Source: Candidatus Gastranaerophilales bacterium (GTDB taxonomy: Bacteria; Cyanobacteriota; Vampirovibrionia; Gastranaerophilales; Gastranaerophilaceae). Taken from it: DNA of 42,184 bases. Made by a program: the position numbers and the translations under genes. Below, in pieces: positions 25,549 through 42,004 of the stretch. Below the pieces are notes generated by a model. That model saw nothing but the letters and a program-made list of their open reading frames with translations. It was not told the DNA's origin and searched no databases. Location of the stretch: positions 1 to 42,184 of the forward strand of contig CALVCA010000013.1 in NCBI GenBank assembly GCA_944325895.1. The letters run 5' to 3'. Every line of letters starts with the position of its first letter. Position 1 is the first letter of the stretch.

Positions 25549-25608
25549 ATGAAAACAATTGAAGAATTAGCGGATAAGATGGTCGCCCCCCCCCTACAGC
25601 CTGCTTGA
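25549..25608 (+). CDS. 19-codon leader ORF with C9 tract, cassette 1
   Basis: Encodes MKTIEELADKMVAPPLQPA from an ATG with a strong RBS. Codons 13-16 span nine consecutive C (25586-25594). The stop TGA lies 11 bases after the tract. With one more C (or a -1 slip) the frame bypasses that stop and runs without interruption into the long prepilin ORF that starts nominally at the TTG at 25605. With eight C it stops at a TAG a little further on. Sequence after the tract differs from the other three cassettes, yet the frame relation is the same. It may be a regulatory leader peptide, or the true first codons of a phase-variable gene. Confidence 0.6.
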   Translation: MKTIEELADKMVAPPLQPA

Positions 25609-26684
25609 TTAGAGCCTTTCGGGCTGTTTTTGGTAGTTTATTTTACTCTATACATCATTTTGGACAAAAAAATTATTTTAATAAAGTTACTAAGGCATTA
25701 TGCCAAAATAACTTTTTAACGAACTTATTCCACTCAACCCGTCATTCTGAGCGGAGCGAAGGTGCTACGCAGCGGATTTGGACAAGAGTGAGCGAAGCTA
25801 AACTCGTCCCGAAAACCACGCTTTTGCGAACTGTACAAATCCAAGACCGTAGACATACTGAGTTTTGCATAGCATTTCACGGCTGCAAGATCCTGAAACA
25901 AGTTCAGGATGACAGTGCTACGCACGTAGACACATTAGATTTTGCATTGTCTTCTACACGTCATTCTGAGCGGAGCGAAGAATCTCTTAATGAGATCCTT
26001 CGGCTGAAGCCTCAGGGTGCTACGCACGTAGGTATGTCTAACAACAATCGTCGTGCCGCCTTCACGCTCGCCGAGGTTCTTATCACCCTCGGGATTATTG
26101 GGGTTGTCGCTGCTTTGACTATCCCGACTTTAATTTCCAAATATCAGGATATTCAATTTAAAACCGCTTATAAAAAAGCTTTTTCCGATTTTAATCAAGT
26201 GCTTTTATACGCCATGGCAAATAATGAAATGCCTTACAGATCAAGCACCTTTAATCCAAATACAACTTCTAAAGAATTTGAAATGATAAAAGCCGGTTTT
26301 AAAGTCGCAAAAGAATGTGACAGCGATACGTTTTACGAATGCTGGGCTAAAGGTGACGCTATTTGCGGAGGTTCCGGAAACCCTGACGAGTGCCAACCAA
26401 AACCTGAAGCTTCTGTAAATCCATTTATTGATATATCGGGCAGAAGCTGGGGATCTTATGATAGCTCTGAAAATATTTTTATTGTTGATACTAATGGTTT
26501 ATCAGAACCAAATATGTTTGGTAAAGACAGGTGGATTTTTACTTTAGCTGATGAAAAAGGTCAAAGAGTATCTGTCGGATACCCTGTTCAAGTTAAACCT
26601 TACCGAAATACCGATATTACAACTGTAAACTCGCTCTGTAAACAACCGCCTTGTTATTATCATTCCTGGCTTTATAAAAAATAG
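25605..26684 (+). CDS. Type IV prepilin-like protein, cassette 1
   Basis: The open frame is 359 residues from a TTG. The recognisable prepilin begins at MSNNNRRAA/FTLAEVLITL (internal ATG at 26034), giving a normal nine-residue leader, E5 of the mature protein and a 20-odd-residue hydrophobic helix ending AALTIPTLI; the mature protein would be about 207 residues with Cys pairs in its globular part. The residue before the cleavage site is Ala, not the usual Gly. The upstream about 140 codons are built from palindromic repeat modules that remain open. The last 122 bases before the C-terminal codons (26507-26628) are identical to cassette 2. Likely a pseudopilin of a pilus or type II secretion-like machine, processed by a prepilin peptidase. 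Confidence 0.8.
   Translation: MIRAFRAVFGSLFYSIHHFGQKNYFNKVTKALCQNNFLTNLFHSTRHSERSEGATQRIWTRVSEAKLVPKTTLLRTVQIQDRRHTEFCIAFHGCKILKQVQDDSATHVDTLDFALSSTRHSERSEESLNEILRLKPQGATHVGMSNNNRRAAFTLAEVLITLGIIGVVAALTIPTLISKYQDIQFKTAYKKAFSDFNQVLLYAMANNEMPYRSSTFNPNTTSKEFEMIKAGFKVAKECDSDTFYECWAKGDAICGGSGNPDECQPKPEASVNPFIDISGRSWGSYDSSENIFIVDTNGLSEPNMFGKDRWIFTLADEKGQRVSVGYPVQVKPYRNTDITTVNSLCKQPPCYYHSWLYKK
25740..26031 (+). repeat. Palindromic repeat modules inside cassette 1
   Basis: Order: short CGTCATTCTGAG half-hairpin (25740), a 145-base module (25771-25915) nearly identical to 28716-28860, a palindrome CTACGCACGTAG (25918-25929), a second CGTCATTCTGAG hairpin (25959 onward) and another CTACGCACGTAG (26020-26031). 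All keep the reading frame open into the prepilin. Confidence 0.8.
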
Positions 26685-28459: not shown

Positions 28460-29548
28460 ATGAATTATAAAAGGGTGAATTGGGTTAAAAAAATAAAGGA
28501 CAACTTTTTTAACAAAGTTACTACGGCATTATGCCAAAATAACTTATTCCCTTATTTCCTAATTCCCTCATTCCCTTCCATCCGTCATTCTGAGCGGAGC
28601 GAAGGTGCTACGCACGTAGACACATTAGATTTTGCATTGTCTTCTACACGTCATTCTGAGCGTAGCGAAGAATCTTTTAATGAGATCCTTCGGCTAAAGC
28701 CTCAGGGTGCTACGCAGCGGATTTGTACAAGAGTGAGCGAAGCTAAACTCGTCCCGAAAACCACGCTTTTGCGAACTGTACAAATCCAAGACCGTAGACA
28801 TACTGAGTTTTGCATAGCATTTCACGGCTGCAAGATCCTGAAACAAGTTCAGGATGACAGTATTGTAAAGACATTTGACAAAAATCGTCGTGCTGCCTTC
28901 ACTTTGGCAGAGGTTCTAATCACCCTCGGGATTATCGGGGTTGTTGCCGCTTTAACTATTCCGACATTAATTTCCAAATATCAAGATATTCAATTTAAAA
29001 CCGCTTATAAAAAAGCTTTTTCCGATTTTAATCAAGTGCTTTTATCATCCATGGCAAACAATGAAATGCCTTATCGGACAAATCGATATGATTCAAATGC
29101 GACTGCTAAAGAATTTAAAATTATAAAAGCCGGCTTTAAAATTGCAAAAGAATGCAATAACGATACATTTTATGAATGCTGGGCTCAAGGTGATACTGTT
29201 TGCGGAGGTACCTGTTCCTCAGGTAATCCTGATGACGGCATAGATTTAGATAACGGAATGCCTCAACCATACAACTCGGGAAAGCCATTTATTGATATGT
29301 CAGGCAGAAGCTGGGTACCGTATTTTTATACCGAAAATATATATTTAGTTGACACTAACGGTTTAGCAAAACCAAATATGTTTGGTAAAGACAGGTGGAT
29401 TTTTACTTTAGCTGATGAAAAAGGTCAAAGAGTATCTGTCGGATACCCTGTTCAAGTTAAACCTTACCGAAATACCGATATTACAACTGTAAGCTCGTAC
29501 TGTAAACAACCGCCTTGTTATTATTATTCCTGGCTTTATAAAAAATAA
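28460..29548 (+). CDS. Type IV prepilin-like protein, cassette 2
   Basis: The open frame is 362 residues. The prepilin part (KTFDKNRRAA/FTLAEVLITL onward) is closely related to cassette 1, with the same Ala before the cleavage site. Unlike cassettes 1 and 3 there is no ATG at the expected place: ACA replaces it, and the nearest in-frame candidates (a GTG and a TTG in repeat modules, or the ATG at 28460) are far upstream. Either this protein is made with a long N-terminal extension encoded by repeats, or its short-form start has been lost. Its ORF ends four bases before the converging pilT gene. Confidence 0.75.
   Translation: MNYKRVNWVKKIKDNFFNKVTTALCQNNLFPYFLIPSFPSIRHSERSEGATHVDTLDFALSSTRHSERSEESFNEILRLKPQGATQRICTRVSEAKLVPKTTLLRTVQIQDRRHTEFCIAFHGCKILKQVQDDSIVKTFDKNRRAAFTLAEVLITLGIIGVVAALTIPTLISKYQDIQFKTAYKKAFSDFNQVLLSSMANNEMPYRTNRYDSNATAKEFKIIKAGFKIAKECNNDTFYECWAQGDTVCGGTCSSGNPDDGIDLDNGMPQPYNSGKPFIDMSGRSWVPYFYTENIYLVDTNGLAKPNMFGKDRWIFTLADEKGQRVSVGYPVQVKPYRNTDITTVSSYCKQPPCYYYSWLYKK
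28583..28860 (+). repeat. Palindromic repeat modules inside cassette 2
   Basis: The modules of cassette 1 occur in a different order: CGTCATTCTGAG half-hairpin (28583), CTACGCACGTAG (28608-28619), the CGTCATTCTGAG hairpin (28649 onward), then the 145-base module (28716-28860), which differs from 25771-25915 at one base that I can see. That module itself contains GGATTTGTACA and its complement, and a CCTGAA/TTCAGG hairpin. Confidence 0.8.
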
Positions 29549-36234: not shown

Positions 36235-37254
36235 ATGAATTATAAAAGGGTGAATTGGGTTGAAAAAATAAAGGGTAGATTTTTTAATAAAGTTACTATG
36301 GCATTATGCCAAAATAACTTATTAACGAACTTATTCCACACAACCCGTCATTCTGAGCAAAGCGGTGCTACGCAGCGGATTTGTACAAGAGTGAGCGAAG
36401 CGAAACTCGTCCCAGCGAGCAAAACCACGCTTTTGCGAGCCGTACAAATCCAAGACCATAGACACATTAATTTTGCATTGTCTTCTACACGTCATTCTGA
36501 GCGGTGCGAAGGTGCTACGCACGTAGGTATGTTTGACAAAAATCGTCGTGCTGCCTTCACGTTAGCCGAAATTCTAATCACCCTCGGGATTATCGGGGTT
36601 GTCGCTGCTTTGACTATCCCGACTTTGGTTAAAAACTACAGAATTAAAGTTTTAAAAACACGATACACGCAGACATATGCAATTCTATCAGAGGCAACCA
36701 TTAAAACTCGCATGGAACTTGGCGAAAATCTTTATGAAAACTGTTTTATAAACAACTCAATTAATTCCGTATTTAGCCGGAAATTCGAGGAAACTTTTTT
36801 AAAAAACTGTAATTACATTCAAAAATCTACAGAAGACTATACGATAACGAATTATACGGGCACACAATCCTATTCAACAACAGAGCAAGGTGATTCAGAC
36901 TATCCGGCACCGTTATATATGTTAAAAAACGGATCTTCGGTAGATATAAGAGTAAACGGCTCAACAATAAGAATATTTGCAGATACTAACGGACCGAAAT
37001 CAGGGCCAAACAGACTTGGCTATGATATTTTCCGATTTCATTTAAAAAATGACTTGTTAGCACCGGTAAAAATGTACAAAAAATATACATCCGAAGAAGA
37101 ATTGGAAGATGTACTATATCCTTTTGTTGATGGGTATCCATGCACCAAAGATTCGCCTCAAATTTTGAACGGAACAGGATGCAGCTGGTATGCACACCAC
37201 GATATGAATCCAGATGATGAAACCAAAGGTTATTGGGAAAGTCTAAAATTTTGA
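36235..37254 (+). CDS. Type IV prepilin-like protein, cassette 3
   Basis: The open frame is 339 residues; the recognisable prepilin starts at MFDKNRRAA/FTLAEILITL (ATG at 36529) and gives about 232 mature residues. The globular part differs completely from cassettes 1 and 2 (TYAILSEATIKTRMELGENLYE, then ADTNGPKSGPNRLGYDIFRF), retaining the D-x-N-G-x-K-x-P-N-x-x-G-x-D-x-F-x-F pattern common to these pseudopilins. Upstream codons are again repeat modules in frame. The stop is about 35 bases before spmA. Confidence 0.8.
   Translation: MNYKRVNWVEKIKGRFFNKVTMALCQNNLLTNLFHTTRHSEQSGATQRICTRVSEAKLVPASKTTLLRAVQIQDHRHINFALSSTRHSERCEGATHVGMFDKNRRAAFTLAEILITLGIIGVVAALTIPTLVKNYRIKVLKTRYTQTYAILSEATIKTRMELGENLYENCFINNSINSVFSRKFEETFLKNCNYIQKSTEDYTITNYTGTQSYSTTEQGDSDYPAPLYMLKNGSSVDIRVNGSTIRIFADTNGPKSGPNRLGYDIFRFHLKNDLLAPVKMYKKYTSEEELEDVLYPFVDGYPCTKDSPQILNGTGCSWYAHHDMNPDDETKGYWESLKF
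36346..36526 (+). repeat. Palindromic repeat modules inside cassette 3
   Basis: Contains CGTCATTCTGAG at 36346 and 36490, a shortened hybrid of the 145-base module with a small in-frame insertion, and CTACGCACGTAG at 36515-36526 immediately before the prepilin ATG. Confidence 0.75.
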
Positions 37255-41680: not shown

Positions 41681-41715
41681 AAAAAATTAGGAATGATAAA
41701 AGTCATTCCTAATTT
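41681..41715 (-). terminator. Second rRNA-type terminator
   Basis: AAATTAGGAATGA and TCATTCCTAATTT form a perfect 13-bp stem followed on the minus strand by a T run. It lies beside the partial 5S copy and mirrors the arrangement at 41846-41879. Confidence 0.85.
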
Positions 41716-41720
41716 AGATA

Positions 41721-41751
41721 CTGGCATCAGGCTATCTTCCCGGGCGGTGGC
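41721..41751 (-). pseudogene. Fragment of the 5S rRNA 3' end
   Basis: Thirty-one bases match 41890-41920 (the 5S rRNA 3' end) with two differences. The match breaks off at the palindrome CTACGCACGTAG, which is also found in the prepilin cassettes. It has its own terminator, so it looks like the leftover of a duplicated 5S gene. Confidence 0.85.
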
Positions 41752-41762
41752 TACGCACGTAG
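41751..41762. repeat. CTACGCACGTAG palindrome beside the 5S fragment
   Basis: This 12-base palindrome also occurs at 25918-25929, 26020-26031, 28608-28619 and 36515-36526. Here it is followed by AGACAC, as at 25929 and 28619, suggesting a shared mobile module end. Confidence 0.8.
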
Positions 41763-41845
41763 ACACGACGCCTTGAATTCTTGCTAAATAAACTCTACAG
41801 AATAAAATTATTAATCATTTTTTTATAATAAGATATTTTCTCACT

Positions 41846-41879
41846 AAAAAAGAGGAACAACTATTGTCATTCCTCTTTT
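41846..41879 (-). terminator. Terminator of the rRNA operon
   Basis: AAAAGAGGAA and TTCCTCTTTT form a stem followed on the minus strand by a T run, just after the 5S gene. Confidence 0.85.
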
Positions 41880-41887
41880 AAAATAGA

Positions 41888-42004
41888 TGCTGGCATCGGG
41901 CTATCTTCCCAGGCGGTGGCCCGCCAAGTATTTTCACTGAAATGAGTCTTTACGACCGTGTTCGGGATGGGAACGGGTGGTTTCCTCACTCTTGGACACC
42001 AGCG
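41888..42004 (-). rRNA. rrf: 5S ribosomal RNA
   Basis: About 117 bases on the minus strand. The terminal helix GCTGGTGTC/GATGCCAGC closes the molecule, and CCACCCGTTCCCATCCCGAA with the downstream GAACACGG is the universal 5S core. It follows the 23S gene after a spacer of about 108 bases. Confidence 0.93.

Follow-up and report, generated by a model that had tools for sequence, protein, structure and literature searches.

Organization of the rrn tail

The end of the rRNA operon in this Gastranaerophilales genome raises the question of how a fragment of the 5S rRNA gene, equipped with a terminator of its own, came to be joined to a short palindrome (here called P) that also recurs among prepilin genes. 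A first-pass annotation proposed that P marks points of recombination or insertion and that it truncates an extra 5S gene here. The window, the whole stretch of 42,184 nucleotides that was analyzed, carries the following features at this end.

41684 to 41715, minus strand: perfect 13-bp terminator hairpin of the partial 5S copy (arms 41684-41696 and 41703-41715, then a T-run in the 5S-sense direction)
41720 to 41750, minus strand: partial copy of the 5S 3' end, identical at 28 of 31 positions to 41889-41919 of the 5S gene
41751 to 41762, plus strand: P core, CTACGCACGTAG, from reading of the sequence and from counts in the window and genome
41763 to 41766, plus strand: ACAC, an instance of the NYAY motif that follows most P copies (79 of the 84 counted in this genome)
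41769 to 41772, minus strand: CGCC, from comparison with relatives a likely remnant of the other half of a 5S helix, longer (TACTTGGCG) in genomes G008, G010, and G013
about 41848 to 41879, minus strand: the 5S gene's own terminator hairpin, an inverted repeat plus T-run read in the sequence
41888 to 42003, minus strand: 5S rRNA gene (Rfam RF00001, 77.4 bits), the only 5S found in the assembly

In the 5S-sense direction the order is the 5S gene, its terminator, about 80 mostly AT-rich bases, P-ACAC (as read on the plus strand), the 31-nucleotide copy, and the second terminator, with P lying antisense to the rRNA. The annotation rightly described the copy, its perfect terminator hairpin, and the direct abutment of the copy's other end on P. 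The copy and the gene disagree at 3 of 31 positions, too many for a very recent duplication. Its terminator hairpin differs from that of the 5S gene itself, and may serve to back up the rrn terminator.

The rrn tail in related genomes

A 5S match is present in 9 of the 16 genus genomes searched, one in each, and none of the nine contains the second full 5S gene that truncation of an extra copy would lead one to look for; these are draft assemblies in which rRNA operons may be collapsed. Behind the 5S gene, P or a form of it with one or two changes is found in five of the nine (G000, which is the genome studied here, and G008, G009, G010, and G013), and is absent from the stretch read behind 5S in G002, G006, G007, and G012. 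Comparison of these sequences shows both flanks of P to be 5S derived in G008 (in two copies), in G010, and in the inner of the G013 copies. One flank is TACTTGGCG, and the opposite flank is CGCCTGG, which has diverged in G010. The partial copy consists of roughly the last 50 nucleotides of 5S plus a terminator, and within it the 5S helix GGCGG-GCCA-CCGCC thus has P in place of its loop. In our genome the second 5S-derived piece beside P has shrunk to CGCC.

Since both flanks are 5S derived in three relatives, P lies within the partial copy and the 5S sequence is not truncated at P, contrary to the first-pass annotation; the 5S copy is a partial duplication of an ordinary kind that contains a repeat. 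On its left the rrn-tail P has 5S sequence in G000, G008, G010, and the inner copy of G013, whereas in G009 and in the outer copy of G013 an unrelated gene ends there. The partial 5S copy would thus have received P, with later changes removing one flank or the other. That several separate assemblies show P in the 5S copy argues against an assembly artifact. When five 5S loci are compared with Rfam, rRNA matches alone reach the gathering score. We note that in G008 (locus L087) three terminators stand in a row behind the rrn operon, owing to two partial 5S copies, each with P, that lie 131 bp apart.

Sequence, copy number, and distribution of P

P is an imperfect palindrome (CTACG-CA-CGTAG), and the conserved core, GTGCTACGCACGTAG, is longer than the 12-mer. 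The window contains five exact copies of the 12-mer. Allowing up to two mismatches raises the count to 11 strand-matches, where 0.65 would be expected and none of 100 shuffles gets as high. As the annotation noted, P also occurs in the prepilin cassettes, where the four further exact copies lie in pro-leaders or before prepilin starts.

25918 to 25929, plus strand: P copy in a prepilin pro-leader, exact 12-mer match
26020 to 26031, plus strand: P copy immediately preceding a prepilin start (GTATG), exact 12-mer match
28608 to 28619, plus strand: P copy in a prepilin pro-leader, exact 12-mer match, reading GATHVD in frame
28707 to 28801, plus strand: P hairpin whose loop holds a nested palindrome; a second complete example starts at 25762
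36515 to 36526, plus strand: P copy directly before a prepilin start, exact 12-mer match

The annotation had P followed by the same AGACAC; ACAC follows three of the five window copies, and GTATG follows the two that directly precede prepilin starts. In the rrn-tail copy GTGG precedes CTACG.

The genome as a whole (a draft of 1.686 Mb in 47 contigs, the window being contig C13) contains 109 exact copies of P, 69 forward and 40 reverse, compared with none of the reversed control. The 15-mer GTGCTACGCACGTAG, searched with up to three mismatches, gives 154 matches compared with 6 for its control, and all of the places listed have no mismatches. Allowing one mismatch, P is found in 11 of 15 other genus genomes and in 5 of 24 more distant ones, and outside the genus it is mostly at low copy number or absent. 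The extended motif is present in 57 stretches of metagenome-assembled genomes (MAGs), titled Melainabacteria, Gastranaerophilales, cyanobacterium, or (uncultured) bacterium only, and has no match in viral contigs. Rfam searches of 18 P-bearing loci return nothing but tRNA matches. The 12-mer was not found in the literature text searched, a body of text that leaves most subscription papers outside its scope, and none of the titles and opening lines of abstracts listed for Gastranaerophilales, Melainabacteria, or Vampirovibrionia mentions such a repeat.

The P hairpin is weak in isolation (-5.4 kcal/mol, z -1.6), and the GTAT variant folds differently. There is also a competing fold, GTGC-TAC-GCAC, with GTAG standing 3' of it and able to pair with the internal CTAC as well.

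P in prepilin reading frames

Prepilin loci start with a short open reading frame containing a poly-C tract, and in these loci, the ones examined for reading frame, P reads in frame with the protein. In 64 of the 69 P copies near a prepilin motif the frame encoding GATHV is open into that motif: 38 of 43 in this genome (the copies with a prepilin motif within 700 nucleotides downstream), 18 of 18 in genus relatives, and 8 of 8 in other MAGs. In the five exceptions a different frame is open. Junctions typically read FTLAE-GATHV-DMSDNIRRVAFTLAEVLITLG and KKKA-GATHV-DMSGNIRCAAFTLAEVLITLA.

Among 16 poly-C leaders of this genome, all 16 have exactly one of the three tested frames free of stops through the repeats into the prepilin: the frame as assembled for 1 tract, with one base fewer for none, and with two fewer for 15. 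The C7 tract of G010 reads straight through into the prepilin. This looks like a large phase-variable prepilin family, in which the tracts would presumably switch the frame. Leaders with C9-C10 tracts are seen at at least 16 prepilin loci (L032-L085), and poly-C tracts occur in the window at 25579, 28362, 36137, and 38897.

Relative to G012, G010 has an insertion of 1,360 bp that comprises a complete prepilin locus, the one with the C7 tract, together with its repeat tail (L222 6906-8265 compared with L223 5539-5582), within flanks that are otherwise about 97-99% identical. P lies about 107 bp inside the right edge of this insert and not at its junction, which does not agree with the idea that P marks insertion points.

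One reading of these loci is that the palindromic modules, with P as a recurring head, are protein-coding material that is shuffled in frame into long, variable, phase-switched prepilin pro-leaders, the module in the 5S tail being a by-product of the shuffling. We regard this as a tentative proposal that is possible but would more probably turn out wrong than right.

P as the head of a mosaic repeat unit

The first-pass annotation called for the genomic copies of P to be listed with their flanks, and 103 of the 109 exact copies could be read in this way; totals for this genome vary between analyses (103, 99, 95, 94, 92, or 84 of 109) as duplicate contexts and copies near the ends of stretches are dropped. 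The P core has 2.0 bits throughout, by construction of the search. To its left, the first outside base has 1.1, 1.3, and 0.5 bits in three sets of copies and positions beyond it mostly have no more than 0.7 bits, while the right side is conserved as NYAYRYT in all three. The search pattern for the MAG loci itself required RYAYRYT, such that the NYAY count there (57 of 69) is not independent; the independent counts are those for this genome, listed above, and 21 of 22 in genus relatives. The sharp left edge (GTG) and conserved right side together indicate that P is the left end, or head, of a mosaic repeat unit.

Pairs of P copies agree with this: 1,111 are similar in the right flank alone, 122 in the left flank alone, and 233 in both, and the flanks are combinatorial among the genomic copies. 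Adjacent P copies within 500 bp are in the same orientation in 38 cases and opposite in 4, the smallest spacing being 55 bp. Heads appear to be exchanged between units: of two terminators in G002, one (L166) has P and the other (L202) has GTGCCAAAGGCAC before bodies of the same kind.

It is against this background that P as a specific recombination or breakpoint site is to be weighed. The sharp left edge, the different left partners at the rrn tail, and the combinatorial flanks are what such a site would leave, and the left edge is indeed a module boundary. However, one-sided similarity is 0.84 for P, while two GTCAT anchors score 0.84 and 0.89 and a further eleven anchors 0.26-0.81, and since the GTCAT-type modules are equally one-sided, P is not a special breakpoint, nor more breakpoint prone than they are. 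The conserved right side makes P one end of a unit and not a two-sided crossover site, and no recombinase was identified. A dedicated breakpoint role for P is thus unlikely, and we prefer to see P as the head of a repeat unit.

Many copies of P have a palindrome of about 80-93 bp (GCGGATTTGTACAAG...TGTACAAATCCAAGAC) in the loop, a hairpin nested in a hairpin. Such sites are at 25762, 28707, and 36365 in the window and in L052, L061, L072, L075, L078, L079, and L083.

P at gene ends and the question of mobility

In the two sets of copies from outside this species, a T-run adjoins P at 12 of 71 and 3 of 24, and a stop codon at 7 of 71 and 0 of 24; random positions give about 0.5-1%. P there often supplies the G of a TAG stop. 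Within this species, none of 95 P copies is at a stop codon or T-run. At a terminator common to all 16 genus genomes, P comes immediately after the T-run in G010, G012, and G009, and in G008 with one mismatch; the G006 locus ends before this point, and the remaining genomes continue differently. Behind one conserved gene, loci L113, L122, and L102 have P after the stop codon; among the 30 nearest relatives read at that same stop codon it is present in none, with a polypurine hairpin preceding a similar body in 5, which again looks like an exchange of heads. These five (L244, L256, L263, L264, and L267) have a hairpin of the GTTACTTTTTCTTTACTAAAAAGAAAAAGTAAC type at the stop codon before a body resembling the one found after P elsewhere.

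Such positions recall GTAG-tagged REPs moved by a RAYT (Y1 tyrosine transposase), since P contains GTAG, adjoins gene ends and terminator T-runs above random outside this species, and often gives the G of a TAG stop; REPs that lie downstream of genes and supply TAG stops are among those described in the portions of the literature consulted (PMC3733652). Open reading frames of RAYT size are also present in relatives. Nonetheless, the Y1_Tnp family (PF01797), which matches in 16 of the 40 genomes searched, has no match in this genome, which has more P copies than any other, or in G002 and G008. Exact P is at none of 12 Y1_Tnp loci read, which offer two distant look-alikes only; neighboring P copies are direct and not inverted (38 compared with 4), and, reading along the P strand, GTAG comes on the hairpin's 3' side. 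With its own genome negative and no exact P at the Y1 loci, mobilization of P by a RAYT is not supported, and we consider it improbable. RAYT-like open reading frames of about 170-200 amino acids are seen in several relatives (L187-L194) and not in this genome.

The positions at gene ends could also reflect retention of P for an RNA hairpin function at transcript ends or starts, in stability, termination, or translation. P is sense oriented directly after stop codons and T-runs outside this species, and its GTG and YAY are compatible with G-U pairing, but the lack of any of the 95 copies of this species from such places, the weak folding, and the antisense orientation at the rrn tail make this explanation rather improbable too. 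Very improbable is the reading of P as the terminus of a one-ended, rolling-circle-like element capturing neighbors (antisense 5S here, prepilin starts elsewhere). A left end that stays constant while the right bodies vary greatly from genome to genome would suit it, but NYAYRYT is common to the bodies, no intermediate was seen, and no enzyme for it was found, the search among HUH enzymes having covered Y1_Tnp.

A general insertion of P into hairpin loops was also considered and rejected: flanking stems of at least 4 are found at 30 of 84, 7 of 22, and 20 of 69 copies, compared with means of 26.5, 5.4, and 22.6 for shuffled flanks. Two cases do fit loop insertion, namely, P in the 5S loop and the 80-93-bp palindrome in the P loop. 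Insertion of P itself is not proven, since no empty site was found that has exact ends together with a target duplication, and no dedicated enzyme for its spread was found either. The missing support for a RAYT, the lack of enrichment of flanking stems, and the absence of the motif from viral contigs lead us to favor, with moderate confidence, recombination and slippage plus rare insertion.

A repeat family and its probable footprint behind 5S

The explanation that we prefer, and think reasonably probable, is that P is the head of a set of mosaic palindromic repeats, that its hairpin came into a duplicated partial 5S copy, and that the repeats spread by recombination or slippage with occasional insertion. 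The data show the identity, distribution, and edges of P, its reading frame in the prepilin loci, and the rrn arrangement shared with relatives, whereas we infer the order of events, the movement of P, and any benefit from it. P (GTGCTACGCACGTAG then NYAYRYT) is the hairpin head module of a mosaic, palindrome-rich family in gut Gastranaerophilales, a unit having a hairpin head, a body of about 30-45 bp, and often a GTCAT-type palindrome. Heads and bodies appear to be swapped, and units often follow one another in head-to-tail order. The family has expanded in this species to more than 100 copies, many of them in prepilin loci and in frame with the prepilin. In the rrn operon, the 3' part of 5S and the terminator would have been partially duplicated, and the P hairpin would then have entered the loop of the copied 5S helix before several species of the genus split, so that the tail in the window is probably an eroded descendant of a P-bearing 5S copy. 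The repeats most likely spread by recombining with one another and by slipping during replication, with an occasional insertion by some further activity. The odd rrn tail is accordingly to be understood as the footprint of a repeat family and not as a cut 5S gene.

Relation to known systems

BIMEs, REPs, and Rickettsia palindromic elements (RPEs) are the closest known relatives of the P family, which is best filed with BIME/RPE-like palindromic mosaic repeats. In the portions of the sources consulted, BIMEs and REPs are described as high-copy short palindromes joined with other motifs into composite units, many of them downstream of genes (PMC2817692, PMC3733652), with some REPs inside open reading frames (PMC3733652). 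The P family is like BIMEs in its high copy number and its mosaic combination with other repeats, but P copies are direct and do not alternate in orientation, there is no linked RAYT, and many P copies form open reading frame within prepilin leaders. RPEs are described, again in the portion consulted, as small palindromic repeats of about 150 bp lying in frame within protein genes (PMC10969869). P shares with them the in-frame presence inside coding sequences, but it is far shorter than 150 bp, is one module of a mosaic, and is seen in frame in one gene family, the prepilins, whose loci are those examined.

Homopolymer-switched contingency loci and pilin variation systems are a further kind with which the prepilin loci can be compared. 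The poly-C leader tract and the single open frame of the three tested are shared features, whereas here the leader is built from palindromic repeats and is presumed to switch. It is the link of the P family to these apparently switchable prepilins that is worth following. They look like a prepilin family not described before, built from repeats and switched by poly-C tracts, in a gut lineage represented here by MAGs alone. Many P copies are only tens of bases from contig ends (e.g., on C10, C18, C30, and C38 of this genome and on C72, C83, C91, and C94 of G009), and the prepilin and P arrays seem to break assemblies.
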